Notes under the pieces: model-generated
Told to the model about the DNA's origin: nothing
The model's input: only the letters and a program-made list of their open reading frames with translations
Database searches by the model: none
Source: Janthinobacterium psychrotolerans
Lineage (GTDB): Bacteria; Pseudomonadota; Gammaproteobacteria; Burkholderiales; Burkholderiaceae_D
Length of the DNA: 64,000 nt
Reading direction: 5' to 3'
Assembly: GCF_001677885.1 (NCBI RefSeq)
Contig: NZ_LOCQ01000058.1
Span: 248,001 to 312,000, forward strand
Shown: positions 2-14,413 of the stretch, piece by piece
How the letters are laid out: every line of letters begins with the position of its first letter
Position numbering within the stretch: the first letter of the stretch is position 1
Program-made: the position numbers and the translations under genes

Positions 2-313
2 CTGTACGAAGCGGCCGAAGTGGACGGCGCCAGCAAGTGGAAGCAATTTACGGAAGTGACCCTGCCGCTCTTGGTGCCGTCGATGCTGGTGGCGCTGATC
101 TTCCGCACCCTGACGGCCATCCAGTCGTTCGATATTCCCTACAACATGCCCGGCCCTGGCGACGAGACCAAGACGCTGGCCATGTATATCCAGTCCAATA
201 CCGTCGACTACCTCGACGTGGGCTATGGCTCGACCCTGGCCGTGTTCATGTTCCTGCTGTCGATGGCCACCACCTTCGTGTACTTGAAATATGTCAGAGG
301 AGACAAAGAATGA
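2..313 (+). CDS. Sugar ABC transporter permease, MalF/UgpA type (5' truncated by window edge)
   Basis: C-terminal part of an inner-membrane permease; the reading frame is open at the left edge. Residues 2-24 carry the EAA loop of binding-protein-dependent permeases (EAA, then DGA, then LPLL), which docks on the ATPase. A hydrophobic segment near the end (STLAVFMFLLSMATTFVYL) is the last membrane helix. The stop overlaps the start of the next permease by 4 bases (ATGA), so the two are translationally coupled. Family: carbohydrate CUT1 importers. Substrate is inferred from the locus to be sulfoquinovose or its glyceryl glycoside, as for the Smo-type importers of rhizobia; sequence alone only supports a sugar-type permease. 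Confidence 0.85.
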   Translation: MYEAAEVDGASKWKQFTEVTLPLLVPSMLVALIFRTLTAIQSFDIPYNMPGPGDETKTLAMYIQSNTVDYLDVGYGSTLAVFMFLLSMATTFVYLKYVRGDKE

Positions 314-1140
314 GCGGCCTGTTTTCATCGAAGCGCCTGCGCTGGTTCGCCGCCGCGATCGTCATCCTCAATGGCGTTTTTCCCGCCCTGTGGATTCTGT
401 TTACCTCGCTGAAAACCGAGAACGAGCTGACGCAAAAGCCGATCACCTACTGGCCGCACGAACCGACCATCGGCAATTTTATTTCCGCCTTCCAGGACCA
501 GCCGCTGCTCACATTTTTGACCAACAGCCTGATCGTGGCCGGCCTGTCGACGTTGCTGAGCCTCTTTATCAGCGCGCTGGCCGCCTATGCGATCGCCCGC
601 CTGCGCCTGCGTTTCCGTGGTCTGATCCTCACGGCCATTATCGGCGTGTCGATGTTCCCGCTGGTGACCCTGATGGTGCCGCTGTTCGAAATCATGCGCA
701 GCCTGGGCCTGCTCAATTCGTACTGGGCGCTGGTGCTGCCCTACACGGTGCTCAACCTGCCGATCTGCACCCTGATGATGGTGAGCTTTTTCCAGGATAT
801 TCCGCGCGATATCGAGAACGCGGCCATGCTCGACGGCTGCACCCGCATCAGCGCCCTGTGGCGCATCGTGCTGCCGCTGGCCGCACCGGGCGTGGCGACG
901 GCCGCCATCCTGGCGTTCGTCAACTCCTGGGATGAATTCCTGCTGGCGCTGTCGATGAATTCGGCCGTGGCCTACCGCACCCTGCCGGTCGGCATCCAGC
1001 TGTACCAGGGCGAGTTCGCCTTCCCGTGGCCGATCATTTCGGCGGCGCTGGTGGTGGCCATCGTGCCCATCGTCGTGCTGATCGTGATCTTCCAGGAAAA
1101 GGTCGTCAGCGGCCTGACCTCGGGCGGCTTGAAAGGCTGA
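310..1140 (+). CDS. Sugar ABC transporter permease, MalG/UgpE type
   Basis: 276-residue inner-membrane permease, the usual length for the MalG-type partner. An N-terminal helix (about 9-29) is followed by the periplasmic loop, further helices, and the EAA loop around residues 180-200 (ENAAMLDGCTRISALWRIVLPL). The start at 310 is chosen because it forms an ATGA overlap with the preceding permease; the frame is open further upstream but that part is antisense-like noise. It should pair with the upstream permease, a periplasmic binding protein and an ATPase that are not in the window. Inferred cargo is sulfoquinovose or a sulfoquinovosyl glycoside. Confidence 0.9.
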   Translation: MSGLFSSKRLRWFAAAIVILNGVFPALWILFTSLKTENELTQKPITYWPHEPTIGNFISAFQDQPLLTFLTNSLIVAGLSTLLSLFISALAAYAIARLRLRFRGLILTAIIGVSMFPLVTLMVPLFEIMRSLGLLNSYWALVLPYTVLNLPICTLMMVSFFQDIPRDIENAAMLDGCTRISALWRIVLPLAAPGVATAAILAFVNSWDEFLLALSMNSAVAYRTLPVGIQLYQGEFAFPWPIISAALVVAIVPIVVLIVIFQEKVVSGLTSGGLKG

Positions 1141-1143
1141 TTG

Positions 1144-2040
1144 ATGGACCACTTGTCTTCCATCACGCTCGCGCACGGCGACAGCCGCGCCGAGCTGCAC
1201 CCGGCCACCGGCGGCGCCCTCGCCTGCTGGCGCTGGCGCGGGCGCGACCTGCTGCGCCCGGCGCCAGAGGACGCCACGGTGCGGCAGATGGCCTGCTATC
1301 CGCTGGCGCCGTATTCGAACCGCATCGGCCACGCGCTGCTGCAGGCGCCCGATCAGCGCCACGCCCTGCGCGCCAACTTCGCGCCCGAGCCGCACAGCAT
1401 CCACGGCTTTGGCTGGCAGCGCGCCTGGCAGGTGACCAGCCGCACCAATGACAGCGCCGAACTGCTGCTGGCGCATGCGGGCGACGCCGACTGGCCGTAT
1501 GCCTGCACGGTGCGGCAAAGCGTGGCGTTGGATGACGCTGGGCTGCGATTGAGCCTCTCGGTGACCAACGACGACGCGCGCGCCATGCCGGCCGGCCTGG
1601 GTTTCCACCCCTACTTTCCGCTGGCCCCGGGCCTGCGCCTGGCAACCCAGTGGGATGGCCTCTGGCGCGCCGGCGGCGAGCGCCTGCCAATGGACCTGGC
1701 GCCGCATTCGCAAAGCTCGCCCTTTGCCACGCCACAGCCGGTGGCCGGCTGGCAGGCCGACGACTGCTACAGCGGCTGGAGCGGCAGCGCCAGCCTGCAC
1801 TACCCGGACTACGTGCTGCGCATGTCGGCCAGCGACAACTGCCGCCACCTGGTGTGCTTTGCCCCCAACGACGAGCGCAACTTTATCGCCATCGAACCGG
1901 TCACCCATGCGAACAATGCGTTTGCGCTGGCCGCGCGCGGCGCCAAAGACACCGGCATGCGCCTGCTGGTACAAGGCGCAACCCTGTCGATCGCCATGCG
2001 CCTGGCGGTTGAAGAAACCGGGGAGTTGCACCATGCGTGA
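1144..2040 (+). CDS. Aldose 1-epimerase-like mutarotase, probable sulfoquinovose mutarotase
   Basis: 298-residue galactose-mutarotase-fold protein. The family histidines are visible as H84/H87 (in HSIHGFGW) and H155 (GLGFHPYF), and the general base as E251 (FIAIEPVTHANNAF). It interconverts alpha and beta anomers of a sugar. The ATG at 1144 lies directly after the permease stop; a TTG at 1141 is the alternative. The end overlaps the lactonase start by 8 bases. In known sulfoquinovose operons a mutarotase of this family (YihR-like) equilibrates the sugar released by the retaining sulfoquinovosidase before oxidation, and its place between permease and lactonase fits that. Substrate is inferred from context. 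Confidence 0.8.
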   Translation: MDHLSSITLAHGDSRAELHPATGGALACWRWRGRDLLRPAPEDATVRQMACYPLAPYSNRIGHALLQAPDQRHALRANFAPEPHSIHGFGWQRAWQVTSRTNDSAELLLAHAGDADWPYACTVRQSVALDDAGLRLSLSVTNDDARAMPAGLGFHPYFPLAPGLRLATQWDGLWRAGGERLPMDLAPHSQSSPFATPQPVAGWQADDCYSGWSGSASLHYPDYVLRMSASDNCRHLVCFAPNDERNFIAIEPVTHANNAFALAARGAKDTGMRLLVQGATLSIAMRLAVEETGELHHA

Positions 2041-2965
2041 ATGGCAAGCCGAACTCGTGCTCGACGCGCGCGCCGAACTGGCCGAATGCCCGCTGTGGAG
2101 CGTGGCCGAGCAATGCCTGTACTGGATCGATATCGCCGGGCGCCGCCTGCACCGCTACGATCCCGCGACCGGCCTCGACCGCGTCTGGTGGGTGCCGTGC
2201 GAGCCGGGCTGCATCGCCCTGGCCGATGGCGGCGGCCTGGTGGCGGCCCTGCGCGACGGCTTCTACCGGTTTTATCCGGAGCAATCACGCCTGCACAAGC
2301 TGGCCGACGCACCGTATGACACGCTTGATACGCGCTTCAACGACGGCCGCTGCGACGCGTCCGGCCGCTTCTGGGCCGGCGCCATGTACCAGCCGCGCAC
2401 CAGCGAACAGGCGGCCATGTACTGCCTGGAAGGCGGTTCGGTGTGCCTGGGCTGGGGTCCGCAGGAAGGCCTGGGCGTCAAGGTGAGCAACGGCCTGGCG
2501 TTCACCCTGGACGGCGGCGCGCTGTTCCAGTCCGACACGCCGAATCACGTGATCTATCGCTTCGGTTTCGACGCGGCCAGCGGCCACGTGGGCGAGCGCA
2601 GCGTGTTTGCGCGCCTGCCGGCCAAGGGAGAAGAAGCCGTGTATGGCGGCCGGCCCGACGGCGCCGCGATCGACGCCGAGGGCTGCTACTGGAGCGCGCA
2701 ATACGAGGGCGGGCGCGTGCTGCGCTTCTCGCCCGGCGGCGAGATCATCGGCGTGGTGCACCTGCCCGTGCTGCGCCCGACCATGGTCGCCTTTGGCGGC
2801 GCCGACCTGCGCACCCTGTATATCACCAGCGCGCGCGAAGGCGCGCCTGACGACGAACTGGCGCGCCAGCCCCAGGCCGGCGGCATCTTTGCCGTGCGCC
2901 TGGACGTGGCGGGCCGTCCCGAACCGCTGTACCGCGATGCACCTACGCACAAGGAACTGTCATGA
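2033..2965 (+). CDS. SMP-30/gluconolactonase family protein, probable 6-deoxy-6-sulfogluconolactonase
   Basis: 310-residue six-bladed beta-propeller lactonase. Family residues are recognisable: E18 (ECPLW), N103 (FNDGR), N153 (SNGLAF) and D209 (RPDG), of which E18, N153 and D209 would hold the divalent metal. The start at 2033 lies inside the 3' end of the mutarotase and gives the normal family N-terminus; the frame is open upstream but non-family. The stop overlaps the SDR start by 4 bases (ATGA). In the sulfo-Entner-Doudoroff pathway this step hydrolyses the lactone made by sulfoquinovose dehydrogenase. The family is certain; the sulfo substrate is inferred from neighbours. Confidence 0.85.
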   Translation: MREWQAELVLDARAELAECPLWSVAEQCLYWIDIAGRRLHRYDPATGLDRVWWVPCEPGCIALADGGGLVAALRDGFYRFYPEQSRLHKLADAPYDTLDTRFNDGRCDASGRFWAGAMYQPRTSEQAAMYCLEGGSVCLGWGPQEGLGVKVSNGLAFTLDGGALFQSDTPNHVIYRFGFDAASGHVGERSVFARLPAKGEEAVYGGRPDGAAIDAEGCYWSAQYEGGRVLRFSPGGEIIGVVHLPVLRPTMVAFGGADLRTLYITSAREGAPDDELARQPQAGGIFAVRLDVAGRPEPLYRDAPTHKELS

Positions 2966-3747
2966 ACACCATCACTCTCTATCCCAGCCTGCAGGACCGC
3001 GTGGTCTTTGTCTCGGGCGGCGGCTCGGGCATCGGCGCGTCCCTGGTCGAACACTTCGCGCAGCAGGGCGCGCAGGTCGCTTTCTGCGATATCGACCGCG
3101 ACGCCAGCGCGGCGCTGGCCGCGCGCCTGGCGCCTTTGTCGCGCCATGCGCCGTATTTTGTCTACAGCGATATCCGCGATATTGCCGCCTACCAGGCCAG
3201 CCTGGCGGACGTCGAGGCGCGCTTCGGCGCCATCCGCGTGCTGCTCAACAACGCCGGCCGCGACGACCGCCACACCCTGGCCGAACTGACCCCGGACTAC
3301 TGGGACAACTGCCTGGCGCTGAACCTCAAGCACCATGTGTTCGCCATCCAGCAGGTGGCGCCCGGCATGGCGGCGGCCGGCGGCGGCGCCATCATCAACC
3401 TCGGTTCGATCTCGTGGATGCGCGGGCGGCCCAACCTGGTCGGCTACACCACGTCCAAGGCGGGCATCGCCGGCCTGTCGCGCACCCTGGCGCGCGAACT
3501 GGGCGAACAGAATATCCGCGTCAACGCCATCGCCCCGGGCGCCATCGCCACCGACCGCCAGGCAGCCCTGTGGCGCGATCCGGAAGAAGACCGTCGTTTC
3601 ATCGAACTGCAATGCCTGAAATACCGGCTCGACCCCGGCCACGTGGCGCGCACGGCGCTGTTCCTGGCGGCCGACGATTCGGACGGCATCACCGGCCAGA
3701 ACATCATCGTCGACGCGGGCCTGGCGCAGGTATCCGTCGCCGGCTAA
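2962..3747 (+). CDS. SDR-family NAD(P) dehydrogenase, probable sulfoquinovose 1-dehydrogenase
   Basis: 261-residue classical short-chain dehydrogenase. The Rossmann glycine motif (GGGSGIG) is near residue 18, NNAG is near 95, and the catalytic set is S149, Y162 and K166 (YTTSK). The expected reaction is oxidation of the anomeric carbon to a lactone, the substrate of the lactonase encoded just upstream with a 4-base overlap. The same SDR plus SMP-30 pairing starts the sulfo-Entner-Doudoroff route described in Pseudomonas putida SQ1. An ordinary aldose dehydrogenase (galactose, arabinose or xylose type) cannot be excluded from this gene alone, but the sulfoquinovosidase downstream favours sulfoquinovose. 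Confidence 0.8.
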   Translation: MNTITLYPSLQDRVVFVSGGGSGIGASLVEHFAQQGAQVAFCDIDRDASAALAARLAPLSRHAPYFVYSDIRDIAAYQASLADVEARFGAIRVLLNNAGRDDRHTLAELTPDYWDNCLALNLKHHVFAIQQVAPGMAAAGGGAIINLGSISWMRGRPNLVGYTTSKAGIAGLSRTLARELGEQNIRVNAIAPGAIATDRQAALWRDPEEDRRFIELQCLKYRLDPGHVARTALFLAADDSDGITGQNIIVDAGLAQVSVAG

Positions 3748-3777
3748 GCCGCATCCCACCCTTCAAGGAGATTTCTC

Positions 3778-5232
3778 ATGTTGAACCTGCAAGACGCAAG
3801 CCTGTTGAAACAGCAATGCCTGATCGATGGCGTGTGGTGCGACGCCGATGACGGCGCCACCATCGCGGTGACCAACCCGGCCACCGGCGACATTATCGCC
3901 ACCGTGCCGCGCATGGGCGCGACCGAGACGCGGCGCGCCATCGCCGCCTCGCACGCGGCCTTCAGGCTGTGGCGCAAGGAAACCGTCAAGACGCGCGCCG
4001 CCGTGCTGCGCGCCTGGCACGCCTTGATATTGCAGCACGCCGACGACCTGGCGCTGATTTTGACCTGCGAACAGGGCAAGTCGCTGGCCGAAGCGAAGGG
4101 CGAGATCGTCTCGAACGCGGCCTACCTGGAGTGGTTTGCCGAGGAAGGCAAGCGCGCCTATGGCGACGTGATCGCGCCGCCGTCGAACGACAAGCGCATC
4201 GTCGTCATCAAGCAGCCGATCGGCGTGTGCGCGGCGATTACGCCGTGGAATTTCCCGAACGGCATGATCACGCGCAAGGCGGGACCGGCGCTGGCCGCCG
4301 GCTGCGCCATGGTCCTGAAACCGGCCTCGCAAACGCCGCTGTCCGCCCTGGCTCTCGGTGAACTGGCGCTGCGCGCCGGCGTGCCGCCGGGCGTGTTCAA
4401 TGTGGTGACGGGCGCCGCGCAGGCGATCGGCACCGAGCTGTGCCACAACAACCTGGTGCGCAAGATCACGTTTACCGGCTCGACCGAAGTGGGCGCCTGG
4501 CTGTCGCGCGAGGCGGCCGGCACCATCAAGAAGCTGTCGCTGGAACTGGGCGGCAATGCGCCCTTCATCGTGTTCGAGGACGCCGATATCGACGCGGCCG
4601 TCGAGGGCGTCTTGATGTCGAAATACCGCAACAGCGGCCAGACGTGTGTGTGCGCCAACCGCATCTACGTGCAGGACGGCATCTACGATGATTTTGCGGC
4701 CCGTCTGGTGGCCAGGGTGGAACAGCTGAAACTGGGCAATGGCCTGGAAGCGGGCGTCACGCAAGGGCCGCTGATCGACGAGAACGCCGTGCGCAAGATC
4801 GAGCAGCATGTGGCCGACGCGCTGGCCAAGGGCGGCAAGCTGGCCATCGGCGGCAAGCGCCATGCGCTGGGCGGCAGCTTTTTCGAGCCGACCGTGGTGC
4901 TGGAGGCCAACAGCACCATGCTGGTGGCGCGCGAGGAAACCTTCGCCCCGCTCGCGCCCCTGTTCCGCTTCAGCACGGAAGAGGAAGTGATCGCGCTGGC
5001 CAACGACACCGAGTTCGGCCTGGCAGGCTATTTCTACAGCCGCGACCTGGGCCGCGTCTGGCGCGTGGCCGAGGAGCTGGAAGTGGGCATGGTCGGCATC
5101 AATACGGGCATGATCGCCAATGAAATGGCGCCGTTCGGCGGCGTCAAGCATTCGGGCATGGGCCGCGAAGGCTCGCACTACGGCATGGACGATTTTCTTG
5201 ATATCAAATATCTGTGCATGGGAGGAATTTGA
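3778..5232 (+). CDS. GabD-like aldehyde dehydrogenase, probable 3-sulfolactaldehyde dehydrogenase
   Basis: 484-residue NAD(P)-dependent aldehyde dehydrogenase of the succinate-semialdehyde type. Visible motifs: TPWNFP near residue 155, GSTEVG near 235, E256 (LELGGN, general base) and the catalytic cysteine C290 (GQTCVCANR). A good Shine-Dalgarno (AAGGAG) lies before the ATG at 3778. In sulfo-ED clusters such an enzyme oxidises 3-sulfolactaldehyde, released by the aldolase, to 3-sulfolactate for export. Succinate-semialdehyde or 2,5-dioxovalerate would be the default substrates without context. Belongs to the same plus-strand transcription unit, 30 bases behind the SDR. Confidence 0.82.
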   Translation: MLNLQDASLLKQQCLIDGVWCDADDGATIAVTNPATGDIIATVPRMGATETRRAIAASHAAFRLWRKETVKTRAAVLRAWHALILQHADDLALILTCEQGKSLAEAKGEIVSNAAYLEWFAEEGKRAYGDVIAPPSNDKRIVVIKQPIGVCAAITPWNFPNGMITRKAGPALAAGCAMVLKPASQTPLSALALGELALRAGVPPGVFNVVTGAAQAIGTELCHNNLVRKITFTGSTEVGAWLSREAAGTIKKLSLELGGNAPFIVFEDADIDAAVEGVLMSKYRNSGQTCVCANRIYVQDGIYDDFAARLVARVEQLKLGNGLEAGVTQGPLIDENAVRKIEQHVADALAKGGKLAIGGKRHALGGSFFEPTVVLEANSTMLVAREETFAPLAPLFRFSTEEEVIALANDTEFGLAGYFYSRDLGRVWRVAEELEVGMVGINTGMIANEMAPFGGVKHSGMGREGSHYGMDDFLDIKYLCMGGI

Positions 5233-5258
5233 TTTGATTTGATTTAAGTTGATATAGC

Positions 5259-5276
5259 GCCGCCCGCAGGGGCGGC
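5259..5276 (+). terminator. GC-rich hairpin between dehydrogenase and porin genes (attenuator or partial terminator)
   Basis: GCCGCCC at 5259-5265 pairs perfectly with GGGCGGC at 5270-5276 around a 4-base loop. No run of T follows, so it is not a classical Rho-independent terminator. It probably lowers readthrough into, or stabilises the mRNA of, the porin and sulfoquinovosidase genes. The 107-bp gap around it otherwise holds a TTTGATTTGATTTGATTT repeat and the porin Shine-Dalgarno (CAGGAGACA). Confidence 0.4.
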
Positions 5277-5340
5277 GGCAGTACCGCAGCAGGCAGGGAT
5301 CACCAGCACCATCCATATAAAAAATACAGGAGACAAGATC

Positions 5341-6756
5341 ATGCAAACCACCATCCGCAAGACCACCCTGGCCACGGCCATCACTACCGTCTTCTTTGCG
5401 GCGCCATTTGTTAGCGCTAACGTTTATGCCGACGAACTGAGCGACATGAAGGCCATGCTGGCCCAGCTGCAGGAGCGCGTCGCGCAAATGGAAGCGAAAG
5501 CGGCCCAGCCGGCGCCAGCGCCAGCCCCGGCCACCACCGCGATGGCGCCGGCGGTGGCGACCTCGGCGGCCGCGCCGGCAAAGTCCGCCACCGGCTTTAA
5601 CTGGAAGCTGTATGGCCGCGGCGATATCGGCTACACGGTGTCGCGCGGCAAGGACGCCAGCGGCCGCCAGCTGACCAACCACCGCCTGAACCAAGGCGAG
5701 ATGGCCAGCCGCCTGGGCCTCACCGGTTCCTGGGTTTTCAGCGACGAATACAAGGCCATCTTCGGCGTGGAAACGGGCTTGAACCTGTTCAACGGCAACG
5801 CCGGCGGCGGCACGCAGAACAACACCAGCTCTTCCGTGCTGTTCAATCGCGGCTCGACCGTCGGCTTTGCCTCGACCACCTGGGGCTCGATCGAAGGCGG
5901 CACCATGTATATGGCGCCGTTCTGGGTCTCGCTGGGCGCCGACCTGGCCTCGGCCCACAACTATGGCGCCAACGACTTCAGCGCCCTGTTTTCGCTCACG
6001 CGCCCCGAATCCCTGGGCCGCTACCTGAAGGACCCCGTCACCGGCAACGCCAGCAAGACCACCAGCCTGGCCGGCAATAACTCGGGCACCGCCCTGTTCT
6101 ACGGCAATGCCCTGCGCTACCGCAGCCCGACCTATAACAACTTCTCGGCCGAGGTGTCGTATTCGGCCGGCCAGCAGGCCTCTTCCGCCACCGACCTGGA
6201 AGACGACGGCCGCAGCTGGGCCGCCAATGTGCTGTACAAGAAGGACAATCTGTTCCTCGGCTACGCCCATATGGACTATCAGCAGAGCAACGATATCAGC
6301 ACGGCCGGCACGCCCAACTTCGTCAAGCGCAACCAAGTCACCGACATCGTCGGCGCGCGCTACAAGTGGAACGACTTCACCCTCGGCGGCTCCTACACCT
6401 CGTATCGCGTCTCGAACGCGGGCGGCTATGGCGCCGACGCGTTTGGCGTGTCGGGCGCGTATGACCTGGGCAAGCACCGCATCGAAGGCAGCCTGGCGCA
6501 GATCAGCTATGACGGCGTCAACAGCCGTGGCGCGTTTGGCGCCAACACGGGCGACGGCGTCGGCAAGCCGAAGTCGACCGCCTATTCGCTGGGCTATCTG
6601 TACAACTTCCAGCCGACCCTGTCGTTCTATGCCTACGCCACGCGCATCAGGAATAATGAGCACGCCAAGCTGGGCGTTTTGCAGTTCCGCGGCGACAATA
6701 ACTTTTTTGGCTACAGCCCGGTCGAACTGACCGCCGGCATGTTCTTCGTCTTTTAA
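5341..6756 (+). CDS. Outer-membrane porin, probably for sulfoquinovosyl glycosides
   Basis: 471-residue secreted beta-barrel. A signal peptide (about 1-31, cleavage near VYADE) is followed by a short coiled coil (LSDMKAMLAQLQERVAQMEAK), a proline/alanine linker, and a barrel beginning with FNWKLYGRGDIGY, a trimeric-porin style opening. The C-terminus ends in phenylalanine (FFVF), the usual BAM recognition signal. The N-terminal coiled coil before the barrel recalls sugar-specific porins. It sits between the aldehyde dehydrogenase and the sulfoquinovosidase, so it is likely the outer-membrane entry route for the cluster's substrate. Specificity is inference only. Confidence 0.8.
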   Translation: MQTTIRKTTLATAITTVFFAAPFVSANVYADELSDMKAMLAQLQERVAQMEAKAAQPAPAPAPATTAMAPAVATSAAAPAKSATGFNWKLYGRGDIGYTVSRGKDASGRQLTNHRLNQGEMASRLGLTGSWVFSDEYKAIFGVETGLNLFNGNAGGGTQNNTSSSVLFNRGSTVGFASTTWGSIEGGTMYMAPFWVSLGADLASAHNYGANDFSALFSLTRPESLGRYLKDPVTGNASKTTSLAGNNSGTALFYGNALRYRSPTYNNFSAEVSYSAGQQASSATDLEDDGRSWAANVLYKKDNLFLGYAHMDYQQSNDISTAGTPNFVKRNQVTDIVGARYKWNDFTLGGSYTSYRVSNAGGYGADAFGVSGAYDLGKHRIEGSLAQISYDGVNSRGAFGANTGDGVGKPKSTAYSLGYLYNFQPTLSFYAYATRIRNNEHAKLGVLQFRGDNNFFGYSPVELTAGMFFVF

Positions 6757-6775
6757 TCATCAGGAGTCGCCCCAC

Positions 6776-8797
6776 ATGCAGTTCTCACTAGATCAGGAAA
6801 ACGGCGGCCTTGCGCTGCGCTGCGCGGGACGTTTGCTGCTGCGCCACGCTGCGCAGGCGCCGTGCGTGTTCGTCGGCCAGGGCCGCGAACGCATGGATAT
6901 GTACCGCGGCAATTTCGACATCGAGGACTATGTCGAAGAACGCACCGCCCTGCGCCATCTGGCGCTGACCCAGGACGAACAGGGCGCCACGCTGACGTTC
7001 GCGCGCCATGTGGGCGACGCGCCGCAGCTGGTGCTGCGGGTGCAAGCGCAGCCGCACGGCGTGCACCTGCTGGTGCAACACGCCGCGCCGGGCTGGAACC
7101 GGCTGTGGCTGCGCCTGCCGGCCGAACAGGACGAACACGTGTGGGGCTGCGGCGAGCAGATGTCCTACTTCGACCTGCGCGGGCGCCACTTCCCGCTGTG
7201 GACCTCGGAGCCGGGCGTGGGCCGCGACAAGTCGACCCACCTGACCTGGCAGGCGGACGTGACGGCCAAATCGGGCGGCGACTACTACCACACCAACTAT
7301 CCGCAGCCGAGCTTCATCTCGTCGCAGCGCTACTGCCTGCATGCCGAAACGACGGCCTATGCCGATTTCGATTTCCGCCATGCCGACTTTCACGAGCTGC
7401 AGTTCTGGGCCATGCCGGAGCGGCTCGAATTCATGCTGGCCGACTCCTTCATCGACCTGGTCGGCGTGGTGTCAGCACGTTTCGGCCGCCAGCCGCGCCT
7501 GCCCGCCTGGCTGCAGAACGGCGCCATGCTGGGCCTGAAAGGCGGTGAAGAGCATGCGCGCAGCATCCTCGCGCAAGCGAAACAGCATGGCCTGGCCGTC
7601 AGCGCCCTGTGGTGCGAAGACTGGGTGGGACTGCGCCAGACTTCGTTCGGCAAGCGCCTGTTCTGGGACTGGCGCTGGCAGCCGCAACGCTACCCGGACC
7701 TGAAAAACTGGATCGCCGACCTGGGCAAGGAAAATATCCGCTTCCTCGGCTACGTCAACCCTTACCTGTGCAATGACGGCACGCTGTATCAGGAAGCGCT
7801 GCGGCAGGGCTTTTTGGCCACCAGCATGGACGGTGGCGCCTACCTGGTCGACTTCGGCGAATTCGATTGCGGTGTGGTCGACTTCACCAATCCGGCCGCC
7901 GCGCAATGGTTCGAGGACCGCGTGCTGCGCCAGGAAATGCTCGATTTTGGTTTGTCCGGCTGGATGGCCGACTTCGGCGAATACCTGCCGATCGACCTGC
8001 GCCTGCACAATGGCGTCGACGCGCGCCTGATGCACAACGCCTGGCCGACCCTGTGGGCCGAAGTCAACGCGCGCGCCATCGAGTCCAGCGGCAAGACCGG
8101 CGACGCCACCTTCTTCATGCGCGCCGGCTACACGGGCGTGCAGGCGCACTGCCCGCTGCTGTGGGCCGGCGACCAGTCGGTCGACTTCAGCCGCCACGAC
8201 GGCCTGCAGACGGTGATCTGCGGGGCGCTGTCGTCCGGTTTGCTCGGCAATGCTTACCACCACAGCGATATCGGCGGTTACACTAGCTTGTTCGGCAACC
8301 TGCGCACGGCCGAGCTGTTCCAGCGCTGGACGGAAATGGCGGTGTTTACCTCGATGATGCGCACCCACGAAGGCAACCGCCCGGACGAGAACTTCCAGTT
8401 CTACCAGGACGACCAGGTGTTTGCCCACTTTGCCCGCATGACGCGCCTGCACGTGGCGCTGGCGCCCACCATCGCGGCCCTGGCCGACGAGGCGGTCACG
8501 CTGGGCCTGCCGCTGCAGCGCCCGCTGTTCCTGCACTACGAGCACGACCGCGCCACCTACGCCATCCAGGATCAGTACCTGTTCGGCCCGGACCTGCTGG
8601 TCGCACCCGTGCATGCGGCCGGCGCCACGCGCTGGAGCGCCTACCTGCCGCAGGGCCACGCCTGGGTCCACCTGTGGAGCGGCGCCGTGTTCGACGGCGG
8701 CCAGCGCGTGGAAGTGGCGGCGCCCATCGGCCAGCCGCCGGTGTTCGTGCGCCAGGGCTGCGCGCAGCAGGTGTTTTTCCTGTCGCTGGCAAATTGA
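6776..8797 (+). CDS. yihQ: Sulfoquinovosidase, GH31, KERWY-type binding motif
   Basis: 673-residue retaining alpha-glycoside hydrolase that releases sulfoquinovose from sulfoquinovosyl glycerol or diacylglycerol. Nucleophile D399 (GWMADFGEYLP) and acid/base D466 (WAGDQSVDF) match E. coli YihQ D405 and D472. Sulfonate-pocket residues are all present: K255 (GLKGG), E281 (WCEDW), R294 and W297 (FGKRLFW) and Y502 (DIGGYTSLF). They align with YihQ Q262, Q288, R301, W304 and Y508 at a constant offset of 6-7, giving the KERWY rather than the QQRWY variant. No signal peptide is seen, so it is cytoplasmic and acts after import. The residue numbers of YihQ are from memory of the published motif. The strong motif match makes an ordinary alpha-glucosidase unlikely. 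Confidence 0.93.
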   Translation: MQFSLDQENGGLALRCAGRLLLRHAAQAPCVFVGQGRERMDMYRGNFDIEDYVEERTALRHLALTQDEQGATLTFARHVGDAPQLVLRVQAQPHGVHLLVQHAAPGWNRLWLRLPAEQDEHVWGCGEQMSYFDLRGRHFPLWTSEPGVGRDKSTHLTWQADVTAKSGGDYYHTNYPQPSFISSQRYCLHAETTAYADFDFRHADFHELQFWAMPERLEFMLADSFIDLVGVVSARFGRQPRLPAWLQNGAMLGLKGGEEHARSILAQAKQHGLAVSALWCEDWVGLRQTSFGKRLFWDWRWQPQRYPDLKNWIADLGKENIRFLGYVNPYLCNDGTLYQEALRQGFLATSMDGGAYLVDFGEFDCGVVDFTNPAAAQWFEDRVLRQEMLDFGLSGWMADFGEYLPIDLRLHNGVDARLMHNAWPTLWAEVNARAIESSGKTGDATFFMRAGYTGVQAHCPLLWAGDQSVDFSRHDGLQTVICGALSSGLLGNAYHHSDIGGYTSLFGNLRTAELFQRWTEMAVFTSMMRTHEGNRPDENFQFYQDDQVFAHFARMTRLHVALAPTIAALADEAVTLGLPLQRPLFLHYEHDRATYAIQDQYLFGPDLLVAPVHAAGATRWSAYLPQGHAWVHLWSGAVFDGGQRVEVAAPIGQPPVFVRQGCAQQVFFLSLAN

Positions 8798-8810
8798 TGG
8801 GGATGCGTGG

Positions 8811-9572
8811 ATGAGCATCGGCGCGCATCTGCTGTTCCTGGCCTGCGTGGCGCTGGCCAGCTATGCGCAGAACCTGACCGGCTTTGCCTTCGGCCTGATC
8901 CTGCTGGGTCTTACCGCCGTGCTGCACCTGGCCAGCCTGGGCGACGTCGCCAATGTGGTCAGCGTGCTGGTGCTGGTCAATGCGGCCGTCACCTTCGGCC
9001 GCAGCACGCCCAAGCTGGCCTGGCCGGTGTTCGCGCCCTCGCTGGCCTGCAGCCTGGTGGGCGTCGGCGCCGGCGTGGCCCTGCTGGGCTGGTTCAGCGC
9101 GCAGCAGGTCAGCCTGCTGCGTTTTTTGCTGGGCTGCGCCATCATCGTCTGCGCATGCCTGCTGGTGCTGCGCGCCAGCGCCCGCGCAAGCCAGTCCGGC
9201 CTGCCCTCGTTCCTGTTTTTCAGTGGGGTATCCGGCGTAATGGGCGGCCTGTTCGCCAGCGCCGGCCCGCCCATGGTGTATCAGCTGTACCGCCAGCCAT
9301 GGCCGGCCGACATGATCCGCCATTCGCTGATCGTGCTGTTCGCCGCCAACGCCGTGCTGCGCTTGATACTGGTGCTGGCACACGGCCAGTTCAGCATGAC
9401 CGCCGTCTGGCTGACCGCCGAGGCGTTGCCGGTGGTGATGGGGCTGACCTGGCTGGCCCGCCGTTATCCGTCCCGCCTGCCGGTACAACAGGTCAGGCGC
9501 GCCGTATTCGTGCTGCTGCTGATCGCCGGCCTGGCACTGGTGCTGCCGCCGGTGCTGGCGTTGCTCGCTTGA
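8811..9572 (+). CDS. TauE/SafE-family membrane exporter, probable sulfolactate or sulfonate exporter
   Basis: 253-residue polytopic inner-membrane protein with about seven to eight hydrophobic segments and two related halves, typical of TauE/SafE. The second half carries the family-like GLFASAGPPMVYQLY region. The start at 8811 is 13 bases behind the sulfoquinovosidase stop. Members of this family export sulfite, sulfoacetate or sulfolactate. As the last gene of the cluster it would remove the C3-sulfonate end product that sulfo-ED bacteria cannot use. The family is clear from hydropathy and motifs; the exported anion is inferred. Confidence 0.8.
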   Translation: MSIGAHLLFLACVALASYAQNLTGFAFGLILLGLTAVLHLASLGDVANVVSVLVLVNAAVTFGRSTPKLAWPVFAPSLACSLVGVGAGVALLGWFSAQQVSLLRFLLGCAIIVCACLLVLRASARASQSGLPSFLFFSGVSGVMGGLFASAGPPMVYQLYRQPWPADMIRHSLIVLFAANAVLRLILVLAHGQFSMTAVWLTAEALPVVMGLTWLARRYPSRLPVQQVRRAVFVLLLIAGLALVLPPVLALLA

Positions 9573-9601: not shown

Positions 9602-9629
9602 AAAAAAAAGCCCGCTACGGGAGCGGGCT
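9602..9629 (-). terminator. Rho-independent terminator of the first repeated small RNA
   Basis: On the minus strand AGCCCGCT and AGCGGGCT form an 8-bp stem with a 5-base loop followed by eight T residues. The same stem and T run occur at 11988-12015 and 15373-15400. No T run follows on the plus strand, so it does not obviously terminate the exporter gene. Confidence 0.85.
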
Positions 9630-12140: not shown

Positions 12141-13370
12141 TCAGGCGGTGCGGCGTGACAGGCTCGTCATGAATTCACCGAGCCAGACCAGCAGCGCCAG
12201 CGAGGGGAAGGCCATGCCTGTCAACAAGGTCGCCTGCCAGCCATAACTGGCGTAGATCCAGCCGCCGATGGCCGAACCGGCTGCGCCACCGGCAAAGAAC
12301 AGCGCAAAATACAGGCCGTTCAGGCGGCCCCGCACTTCCGGGGCCAGGCTGAAGATGGCGCGCTGGCCCAGTACCAGGTTGGCGGCCACGCCCATGTCAA
12401 GCACGATGGAGGCCACTACCAGCAAGCCCAGCGCCAGGTGCGGCGATTGCGGTGCGAACATCGGCAAGGCAAACGCCACCATGCCGAGCATCAATGCGGC
12501 GGCCGTGGCCGGCAGAGTATGGCCCGCATCGGCCAGGCGGCCGGCGATCGGCGAGGCCACGGCGCCAGCCATGCCGACCAGGGCAAAGATGGCGATGCCG
12601 GTTTGCGACAGGCCAAACGCGGGGCTGGCCAGCACCAGCGGCGTGACGGTCCAGAACAGGCTGAAGGCGCCAAACAGGCCGGCGTGATAAGCGGCGCGGC
12701 GGCGCAGCACGGCCGTACCCGCCAGCAAATGCCACAGCGAAGCCATCAGCGCTGCATAGCGGATCTTCGATACCGGCCGGCGCACCGGCAAGGCGCGGCG
12801 CAAGACCATGGCCAGGCCCAGCATCAGTACGGCGGCGCCGCCAAACACCACATGCCAGCTGGCATGATCGGCCACCAGCGAGGCGGCCGGACGGGCCAGC
12901 ATAATGCCCAGCAACAAGCCGCTGACCACCTTGCCCACGGCCTGGCCGCGCGTCGCTTCTTTCGACAGGTGGGCGGCAAACGGCACGATCACCTGCGCCG
13001 CCACCGAGCCGAGGCCGATCGCCAGCGCGGCGGCCAGGAACACCAGCGGTCCGGTGCTGATCGCAGCGGCGATCAGCGCAGCGGCCGTGACCAGCAGGCC
13101 CGTAATGATCAGACGGCGGTTTTCCAGCAAGTCGGCCAGCGGCACCACGAACAGCAAGCCGAGCGTATAGCCGATTTGCGTCAGGGTGACAATCAGTCCG
13201 GCGGCCTTGGCCGACAGGCCGGTCGAGGCGCTGATCGGGCCGACCAGGGTTTGCGCGTAATACAGGTTGGCAACGATCAAGCCGGACGCGATTGCCAGCA
13301 GCAATATCATGCCGGACGAGATATCGGGCACCTCGCCGACCAGGGCGGAATGGTTGGAGGCCTTGTTCAT
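12141..13370 (-). CDS. Major facilitator superfamily transporter (drug/metabolite efflux type)
   Basis: 409-residue protein with about twelve hydrophobic segments. Loop 2-3 carries GYTLGLLFVVPLADLLENRRLI, a variant of MFS motif A, and the N-terminal half resembles the Bcr/YbdA/AraJ-type group. AGGAAATAAC before the ATG at 13370 fixes the start; the frame upstream of it is not family-like. It is divergently transcribed from a LysR regulator 119 bp away, the usual arrangement for a regulated efflux pump. Substrate unknown. Confidence 0.82.
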   Translation of the reverse strand: MNKASNHSALVGEVPDISSGMILLLAIASGLIVANLYYAQTLVGPISASTGLSAKAAGLIVTLTQIGYTLGLLFVVPLADLLENRRLIITGLLVTAAALIAAAISTGPLVFLAAALAIGLGSVAAQVIVPFAAHLSKEATRGQAVGKVVSGLLLGIMLARPAASLVADHASWHVVFGGAAVLMLGLAMVLRRALPVRRPVSKIRYAALMASLWHLLAGTAVLRRRAAYHAGLFGAFSLFWTVTPLVLASPAFGLSQTGIAIFALVGMAGAVASPIAGRLADAGHTLPATAAALMLGMVAFALPMFAPQSPHLALGLLVVASIVLDMGVAANLVLGQRAIFSLAPEVRGRLNGLYFALFFAGGAAGSAIGGWIYASYGWQATLLTGMAFPSLALLVWLGEFMTSLSRRTA

Positions 13371-13489
13371 GTTATTTCCTCGGTTGAATAAAGTAAGGCC
13401 ATTGTAGGGAATTTGGCGAAGAAGATAATTAGTGCATAATCGCTCTACACATTTCACATTAGATGAACAATCAAGGAGCCCTGCTTTTT
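13371..13489. promoter_or_regulatory. Divergent control region between MFS transporter and LysR regulator
   Basis: Contains TACAAT on the minus strand (13401-13406) as a likely -10 for the transporter and TTTGGC-17 bases-CATAAT (13412-13440) for the regulator. LysR proteins usually bind such a shared region and repress themselves while controlling the partner gene. No clear T-N11-A palindrome could be singled out by eye. Confidence 0.4.
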
Positions 13490-14413
13490 ATGGACAAGAT
13501 CAAGGCCATGCAGACCTTTGTGCGCATCGTCGAAGCGAACAGCTTCTCCAAGGCGGCCGAAACGCTGAACCTGCCGCGCGCGGCGTTGACCGCCACCATG
13601 CAGAAACTGGAAGCCTATCTCGGCACGCAGCTGCTGCAACGCACCACGCGCCGCCTGTCGCTGACGCCCGATGGCGCCGACTATTTCAGCCAGTGCGTGG
13701 CGATTTTGGGCGCCGTCGATGCGGCCGAACTGGCGTTTCGCGGTCCCGACGCCAACAAGCCGCGCGGCATGCTGAGGGTCAACCTGCCCGGTACCGTGGG
13801 GCGCACCCTGGTCATGCCACATATCGGGAAATTCCATGCAGCCTATCCGGCCGTGCAGCTGCACCTGAGCCTGACGGATCGATTGGTCGACCTGACCGAG
13901 GAAGGCATCGATTGTGCCTTGCGCGTGGGGCAATTGCAGGATTCGGCCTTTATCGGCAAGCGCATCGGCAACATGCGTTTCCTGACGTGCGCGGCGCCGG
14001 CCTACCTGGCGCGCCATGGCGCACCAGCCACGCTGGCCGACCTGCCGCGCCACTGTGGCGTGATGCATTTTTCAGGCCGCACGGGGCGCGCCTTCGACTG
14101 GGATTTTGTGCAGCAAGGGCAAGTGGTGCGGGTCGCCATGACGGGCATGGTGTCCGTCAACGATGCGCAAGCGAACCTGGCCTGCGTGCTGCAGGGCATG
14201 GGGCTGGGCCAGCTGGCCGTCTACCAGGCGCGCGAGCACCTGGCCAGCGGCGCGCTGGTGCCGCTGCTGGAAGATTGTCCGCCAACGCCGATGCCGATCT
14301 CGCTGCTGGCGCCGCAAGGGCGGCTGGCCGTGCCGAAGGTGCAGGCGTTCGCCGCCTGGCTGACGGCGCTGCTGGCGCAGCAAGACGATGTGCAGCAACC
14401 CGACTTGCACTGA
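13490..14413 (+). CDS. LysR-family transcriptional regulator
   Basis: 307 residues. The N-terminal winged helix-turn-helix is canonical (MDKIKAMQTFVRIVEANSF, with AAETLNLPRAALTATMQKLEAYLG as recognition region), followed by the two-lobed effector domain (about 95-300). The ATG at 13490 gives the family N-terminus and has AAGGAG 11 bases upstream; an ATG at 13463 in frame would add nine residues. Probable regulator of the divergent MFS transporter. Effector unknown. Confidence 0.88.
   Translation: MDKIKAMQTFVRIVEANSFSKAAETLNLPRAALTATMQKLEAYLGTQLLQRTTRRLSLTPDGADYFSQCVAILGAVDAAELAFRGPDANKPRGMLRVNLPGTVGRTLVMPHIGKFHAAYPAVQLHLSLTDRLVDLTEEGIDCALRVGQLQDSAFIGKRIGNMRFLTCAAPAYLARHGAPATLADLPRHCGVMHFSGRTGRAFDWDFVQQGQVVRVAMTGMVSVNDAQANLACVLQGMGLGQLAVYQAREHLASGALVPLLEDCPPTPMPISLLAPQGRLAVPKVQAFAAWLTALLAQQDDVQQPDLH

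Follow-up and report, generated by a model that had tools for sequence, protein, structure and literature searches.

A predicted sulfo-Entner-Doudoroff operon for sulfoquinovose glycosides in Janthinobacterium, with a palindrome pair as candidate operators and sister clusters that carry another GH31 lineage

We analyzed a 64,000-nucleotide stretch of the Janthinobacterium psychrotolerans genome (the window; positions 248001-312000 of contig C5, in a genome of 5.84 Mb and 62 contigs). Its left edge cuts through a 14-gene cluster that would encode a complete sulfo-Entner-Doudoroff (sulfo-ED) operon for sulfoquinovose (SQ) glycosides, a reading to which we assign a probability of about 0.95. The cluster spans about 16.6 kb (C5:240945-257572), from a LacI-family regulator gene to a TauE/SafE exporter gene. 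The interval of the original prediction begins at window position 2; the cluster extends 7.1 kb further left, up to and including the divergent LacI gene (overlapping stretch L002, C5:232001-251000). The families that sulfo-ED requires are all present: a PF13561 short-chain dehydrogenase/reductase (SDR), a PF08450 lactonase, a PF00920 dehydratase, a PF03328 aldolase and an aldehyde dehydrogenase, with the lactonase and the 2-keto-3,6-dideoxy-6-sulfogluconate (KDSG) aldolase assigned by family membership only.

The SDR (window 2962-3747, plus strand), a probable SQ 1-dehydrogenase, has as its best PDB match 9gwu, the P. putida SQ dehydrogenase PpSQDH (E 6e-84). When aligned with 12 other sequences, it retains all ten of the active-site residues named in the PpSQDH structure study (Asp45, Asp99, Arg101, Asn119, Ser147, Arg152, Arg154, Tyr160, Lys164 and Gln198; PMC12133307). 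We read the pair at the sulfonate, Arg152 and Arg154, in 33 loci (L004-L036, with L036 not covering the pair). All 18 loci whose SDRs are 54-95% identical (L004-L020 and L022) carry the pair, and all 14 more distant loci (L021 and L023-L035; 37-53%) lack it, with Lys/Asn at its positions in L032 and L033 and Lys/Thr in L024; PDB entries 4lvu and 7wwx also lack it. A dehydratase or aldolase match to the cluster accompanies the SDR in 14 of the 18 pair-bearing loci, the other four (L007, L009, L010 and L014) being cut contigs. No aldolase or sulfoquinovosidase match was found in any of the 14 pair-less loci, among which L023 has distant dehydratase (39%) and lactonase (38%) matches and L032-L034 have a lactonase match (35%). 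In this set, the Arg152/Arg154 pair distinguishes predicted SQ dehydrogenases from sugar dehydrogenases that resemble them.

The nearest named relatives of the SDR are those of Janthinobacterium sp. LM6 and J. lividum (95%). Two pair-bearing SDRs, in L013 (10001-10780) and L016 (10001-10768), have Gly aligned at the NAD-selective Asp45 and may prefer another cofactor; in L013, a TctC-type binding protein gene and a GFO/IDH/MocA-family oxidoreductase gene lie between the aldolase and SDR genes. An SDR paralogue in the J. psychrotolerans genome (about 50% identical) has Leu/Gln instead of the arginine pair and possibly belongs to an oxidative pathway for an unsulfonated sugar. Its locus (L089, G000:C10:92000-104000) holds an IlvD relative (38%) and ATP-binding cassette (ABC) genes nearby.

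The GH31 protein (window 6776-8797, plus strand) is, by its sequence and active-site residues, a probable sulfoquinovosidase. It matches two chains deposited as YihQ, 5ohy and 5ohs, at 971 and 969 bits, and exceeds the cut-off of the curated model NF007746 (950.8 versus 553); we take both chains to be the Agrobacterium enzyme. Its residues K255, E281, R294, W297 and Y502 align to K245, E270, R283, W286 and Y491 of the nearest chain, the five sulfonate-site residues labelled KERWY. D466 aligns with the acid/base residue D455, which one of the two chains carries as Asn, and the catalytic Asp pair is present together with the sulfonate-site residues. The binding protein (C5:246066-247325) has SmoF as its best PDB match (516 bits; 226 of 384 aligned positions identical, 59%) and keeps eight of nine SmoF ligand residues. 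With the ATPase (C5:244874-246022; family scan) and two plus-strand PF00528 permeases, it would form a SmoF-type importer. The first permease is of MalF type (C5:247399-248313, with the family assigned on the full gene), and window 2-313 is its edge-cut C-terminal part; the second is of MalG type (window 310-1140).

The GabD-like aldehyde dehydrogenase (window 3778-5232, plus strand; PF00171) is a probable sulfolactaldehyde (SLA) dehydrogenase. Its best PDB match is 8c54 (717 bits), an entry titled succinate-semialdehyde dehydrogenase that we take to be the Rhizobium SLA dehydrogenase. The next matches, titled succinate-semialdehyde dehydrogenases, score nearly equally (3jz4, 708 bits), and the 8c54 match therefore leaves the substrate unsettled. 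Equivalents of Arg171 and Arg289 were seen by eye; these arginines are also there in succinate-semialdehyde dehydrogenase.

Under the original prediction, the DNA to the left of the window should encode a dehydratase and an aldolase, as well as an ABC ATPase and its binding protein. The binding protein and ATPase genes lie immediately to the left, and the dehydratase (C5 about 242265-244001; PF00920) is of the expected IlvD/EDD type. The aldolase is also present (C5:244045-244857), but it belongs to the HpcH/HpaI family (PF03328) and is not of the 2-keto-3-deoxy-6-phosphogluconate (KDPG) type that had been named; PF03328 is the family of the sulfo-ED KDSG aldolase (PMC9594981). The sulfo-ED interpretation thus gains support from a dehydratase and an aldolase nearby and from an SDR with the sulfonate-site arginines of SQ dehydrogenase. 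All genes that had been named within the window were confirmed on the plus strand from their open reading frames and a family scan, including an aldose 1-epimerase that is a probable SQ mutarotase (window 1144-2040; PF01263), an SMP-30 lactonase that is a probable sulfogluconolactonase (2033-2965; PF08450, 252 bits), an outer-membrane porin (5341-6756; PF13609) and a TauE/SafE protein that is a probable sulfolactate exporter (8811-9572, its end being C5 257572; PF01925).

From the gene content, gene order, families and key residues observed here, we infer the activities, cofactor and transport directions of the pathway, and from the distribution of palindromes its repression. SQ or sulfoquinovosyl glycerol would pass the outer membrane, probably via the cluster porin, bind to the SmoF-like periplasmic protein and enter the cell through the ABC transporter. 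SQ would then be released by the GH31 sulfoquinovosidase, and its anomers interconverted by the epimerase. The SDR would oxidize SQ with NAD to a lactone, SMP-30 would open the lactone, the IlvD/EDD dehydratase would yield KDSG and the HpcH aldolase would cleave it to pyruvate and SLA. The GabD-like enzyme would convert SLA to sulfolactate, and TauE would export it. The divergent LacI-type repressor (C5:240945-241979, minus strand; family scan) would control the operon from a promoter operator and probably also from another operator within the porin gene.

The tight run of genes with ATGA overlaps noted at the outset is correct, with one looser join ahead of the porin. Permeases 1 and 2 overlap by 4 bases, as do the lactonase and SDR genes, and the mutarotase and lactonase genes overlap by 8 bases; the remaining gaps within window 2-9572 are 3, 30, 108 (the looser join), 19 and 13 bases. 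The order of all 14 genes is identical in the J. psychrotolerans genome and in nine of nine fetched cluster-bearing congeners (L077-L085, in which the stretch edge truncates the LacI gene), and chance is therefore not a serious alternative. Beyond the cluster, a hairpin that resembles a terminator, followed on the minus strand by a run of T, lies at window 9609-9629, between the TauE gene and a convergent gene that appears, by eye, to be aminotransferase-like.

Several observations weigh against this interpretation. The dehydratase exceeds the NCBIfam cut-off for L-arabinonate dehydratase (930.6 versus 882) and the aldehyde dehydrogenase exceeds the cut-off of a succinate-semialdehyde dehydrogenase subfamily (710.1 versus 646.35). 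These names neither confirm nor exclude sulfonated substrates, and by sequence the two enzymes are no proof of the pathway. The binding protein has Glu at the position of SmoF His13, one of the nine ligand residues, membership of the TauE family does not reveal the cargo, and a promoter scan found no promoter-like site before the porin gene.

An oxidative pathway for an unsulfonated aldose (xylose, arabinose or glucose) would employ the same enzyme families, and both the dehydratase score and the resemblance of the SDR to D-xylose 1-dehydrogenase (322.5 bits, short of the 400-bit cut-off) point in that direction. However, such a pathway would not account for the Arg152/Arg154 pair, the sulfoquinovosidase with its residues, the SmoF-like binding protein or TauE, and the Leu/Gln paralogue near the 38% IlvD relative in L089 is a better candidate for the role. 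We rejected a pentose or glucose pathway on the arginine pair and the sulfoquinovosidase, and consider it very improbable. Equally improbable, in our estimate, is a Paracoccus-type pathway for sulfofucose (6-sulfo-galactose), which shares the dehydrogenase, lactonase and aldolase families and an ABC importer, but uses a PF13378/PF02746 dehydratase (PMC12421959). The cluster's dehydratase is PF00920, and no PF13378/PF02746 dehydratase was found among the scanned cluster genes. Moreover, the cluster carries a sulfoquinovosidase-type GH31, and the E. coli and Agrobacterium sulfoquinovosidases are inactive on a sulfofucoside (PMC12421959). The family of the dehydratase led us to reject this pathway.

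The fate of sulfolactate raises another alternative, in which sulfo-ED is joined to full mineralization by SuyAB in the same cell. SuyA- and SuyB-like genes lie near the SDR in L008, L010, L011, L012, L014, L016 and L017, and a SuyB-like gene in L013; the labels SuyA, SuyB, SlcC and ComC are ones that we presume for proteins of L011, the source of the queries. In the J. psychrotolerans genome, however, the L011 SuyB-like protein found no close relative in a whole-genome search (SuyA, SlcC and ComC were not searched there). Its matches were 36% and 32% identical, in open frames of 533 and 622 residues, as expected of sugar-acid dehydratase relatives; we took them as such and rejected SuyAB in this genome on that ground. 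The cluster instead has TauE and an SLA-dehydrogenase-like gene, and we regard mineralization in the same cell as the least probable of the three alternatives. Because the genome has no close SuyB relative and a TauE gene ends the cluster, export of sulfolactate is likely, and is the likeliest outcome that the sequence suggests.

The sulfo-ED cluster also carries a pair of palindromes that suggest how it might be regulated. Between the LacI and dehydratase genes lies a promoter-like site (TTGACA-18-TATATT, score 11/12), both hexamers of which are kept in all nine aligned loci, the window's included. Fifteen bases 3' of this site is a perfect 14-bp palindrome, TGTTAGCGCTAACA (L002 10173-10186). 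The GTG start of the dehydratase gene (L002 10163) is probably wrong, since the palindrome sits 3' of it and a TTG at L002 10265 is preceded, by eye, by a ribosome-binding-like sequence. A second palindrome, TGTTAGCGCTAACG (window 5409-5422, without strand; one mismatch), occupies porin codons 23-28, at what appears by eye to be the end of the signal peptide, about 11.2 kb from the promoter copy. A whole-genome search allowing up to two mismatches found three places: the promoter, the porin site (one mismatch) and one elsewhere (two mismatches). A reversed control pattern found 12 places in the same search; the palindrome is therefore not enriched at two mismatches, and the argument rests on the location of the two best sites. 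Given the base composition of the window, chance would produce 0.38 sites with no more than one mismatch in the genome and 0.001 in the cluster.

Comparison within the genus supports the pair. The sequence TGTTAGCGCTAACR occurs at exactly two places, both inside the cluster, in nine of nine cluster-bearing congeners and is absent from 17 of 17 congeners without the cluster; all 10 cluster-bearing genomes of the genus, our own included, have the palindrome pair. Four whole porin codons (GTT AGC GCT AAC) are identical at the DNA level in 10 of 10 genomes, and the codons on either side vary. Across the whole porin gene, the same spelling is used at 106 of the 265 unchanged degenerate codons, and full identity over five consecutive codons is seen in 2 of 467 windows, in a comparison in which the LM6 row is a truncated frame. 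On their own, the four identical codons would be weak evidence; their agreement with the promoter palindrome is what makes the evidence good. The palindrome also occurs between the LacI and dehydratase genes in L013 (exact) and L016 (one mismatch), whose LacI relatives are 42% and 38% identical. L018 and L020, Halomonas-type sulfo-ED clusters with LacI relatives of 39% and 38%, have no copy within two mismatches, which argues against a general rule. Absence from L008, L011, L022 and L086-L088 carries little weight, as these stretches have no LacI match and several lack the region before the dehydratase.

Based on these sequence comparisons, the LacI protein probably uses the palindrome as its operator, with an auxiliary copy in the porin gene. 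The porin copy may act as a local block, by looping or through control of a weak porin promoter. A GC-rich hairpin that precedes the porin gene (window 5258-5277) was also considered as a punctuation signal. We dropped it, since the gap folds no better than shuffled sequences (z -1.10; 31 of 200 shuffles as good) and since, among the nine aligned loci, its sequence is in the window and L084, and only partially in L006. Among the papers listed on sulfoquinovose with LacI and operators (on E. coli) or with porins, the titles and abstract beginnings mention no such operator. In lac operon-type systems, the main operator lies at the promoter and an auxiliary operator inside a downstream structural gene. 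The arrangement here would be alike in its LacI-family regulator, promoter operator and second operator in a downstream structural gene; unlike the lac type, its candidate second site is about 11.2 kb away and in a porin gene. The palindrome pair can serve as a regulon marker.

The porin itself is the sole match to its sequence in the genome at E <= 0.001. In Janthinobacterium sp. LM6 it is split over two frames (L080; L004 about 12300-13900), and the nine further copies in the comparison run uninterrupted for 463-472 codons. Among 294 genomes of the family, an SDR match of at least 63% was found in 13: our own, nine congeners, G045, G233 and G269 (L004, L005 and L006 are treated as the same genomes as G109/L080, G168/L083 and G237/L085, and L022 as G045/L086). 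A close SDR is present in 10 of 27 congeners among the genomes listed, our own included; a further 142 unlisted genomes without a match come, by list order, all from other genera. A rearranged form of the sulfo-ED cluster occurs in a second genus of the family (L087 and L088), with TauE (57% and 51%) and porin (30% and 32%) genes beside the SDR and a sulfoquinovosidase (73% and 72%) in the cluster. A family scan of the L087 genes assigned its porin to Porin_4 and showed a sodium:solute symporter (PF00474) adjoining GH31. A porin thus recurs with an apparently different inner-membrane carrier.

Other beta-proteobacteria carry sister clusters in which the SDR stands with a GH31 of another lineage, here called GH31b (L008, L010, L011, L012, L014, L017 and L022; in L014, a 10% fragment at a contig edge). 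SuyA- and SuyB-like genes accompany GH31b in six of these seven loci, SlcC-like genes in five and ComC-like genes in four; L022 has an SLA-dehydrogenase-like gene (80%) in place of the SuyA/SuyB-like genes. Some loci are short or cut (L007, L009, L010, L014, L015 and L021 among them), and the absence of a gene there therefore means little. The five L011 proteins labelled SuyA, SuyB, SlcC, ComC and GH31b match all their NCBIfam models below the cut-offs, with galactarate dehydratase, phosphoglycerate dehydrogenase, L-sulfolactate dehydrogenase and alpha-xylosidase as best matches, the last being nearest to GH31b.

We aligned five GH31b sequences with YicI and sulfoquinovosidases, at low identity, and found the catalytic aspartates kept. 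Window R294 corresponds to Arg or Lys in GH31b and to Ala in YicI; the residue differs at the remaining four sulfoquinovosidase positions (K255 to Ala, E281 to Asp, W297 and Y502 to Phe), which argues against the known sulfoquinovosidase site being simply copied in GH31b. In a sample of 399 genomes of the order, where the separate SDR and GH31 searches are taken as one draw, the SDR was found in seven (E <= 1e-85). A sulfoquinovosidase match (E <= 1e-150) accompanies it in our own genome and G365. The remaining five have GH31b (57-100%), which shares a contig with the SDR at a distance of 1.8 to 5.7 kb; at the thresholds used, the two GH31 types do not co-occur in any of the seven. GH31b was also present, at 46-49%, in six genomes that lack the SDR. 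This distribution is a lead that GH31b may substitute for the sulfoquinovosidase in sister clusters, and no such second lineage appears among the titles listed by a literature search on sulfoquinovosidase, GH31 and xylosidase.

A tentative proposal, to which we give somewhat less than even odds, is that beta-proteobacterial sulfo-ED comes in two interchangeable forms: one in which a two-operator LacI system includes a porin switch, and a sister form with a YicI-like GH31, in which SuyAB, SlcC and ComC mostly replace export. If so, the porin operator would give outer-membrane uptake its own switch, and the sister form would let one cell mineralize SQ completely. The sister clusters suggest that a second sulfoquinovosidase lineage may exist and that a single organism may carry out the mineralization.

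Much of this setting is already published. Reviews place sulfo-ED clusters in the alpha-, beta- and gamma-proteobacteria (PMC9594981, PMC12890257), ABC transporters are implicated in SQ uptake in sulfo-ED (PMC12421959), and the E. coli yih cassette contains ompL (PMC12608037). With beta-proteobacterial loci, ABC uptake and a porin in an SQ cluster in print, the cluster is a well-supported further case of a known pathway; the palindrome pair and the sister clusters with the other GH31 lineage go beyond the original prediction. The SuyAB extension has been described for the sulfo-transaldolase (sulfo-TAL) pathway (PMC9594981) and for the sulfofucose pathway (PMC12421959), and one study reports labelled Burkholderiaceae and Zoogloeaceae that lack canonical SQ clusters (PMC13372026). 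A literature search on sulfoquinovose and Janthinobacterium listed only work on edible plant microbiomes; the cluster adds a candidate beta-proteobacterial model for sulfo-ED.

Among known systems, the cluster resembles the sulfo-ED pathway of P. putida SQ1 in the family at each step, in sulfolactate as the expected product and in the ten shared SQ dehydrogenase site residues (PMC12133307; reviews PMC9594981, PMC12890257). It differs from the Agrobacterium SQ monooxygenase cluster in that none of its 14 genes, all scanned, matches monooxygenase or flavin reductase families. The two are similar in the SmoF-like binding protein (59%) and GH31 (969-971 bits). Rhizobium leguminosarum SRDI565 sulfo-ED presumably supplies the GabD-type dehydrogenase nearest in the PDB (8c54). 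A Rhizobium SLA dehydrogenase is reported in PMC10599462. The E. coli yih cluster, which belongs to the sulfo-Embden-Meyerhof-Parnas (sulfo-EMP) pathway, likewise unites a porin gene (ompL), a sulfoquinovosidase, a mutarotase and its own regulator in one SQ cluster, but differs in its isomerase, kinase and aldolase chemistry, its major facilitator superfamily (MFS) carriers and its CsqR regulator. The cluster porin, offered in the original prediction as distinctive of this layout, is consequently shared with E. coli yih and with L087, where a Porin_4 gene stands beside the SDR.

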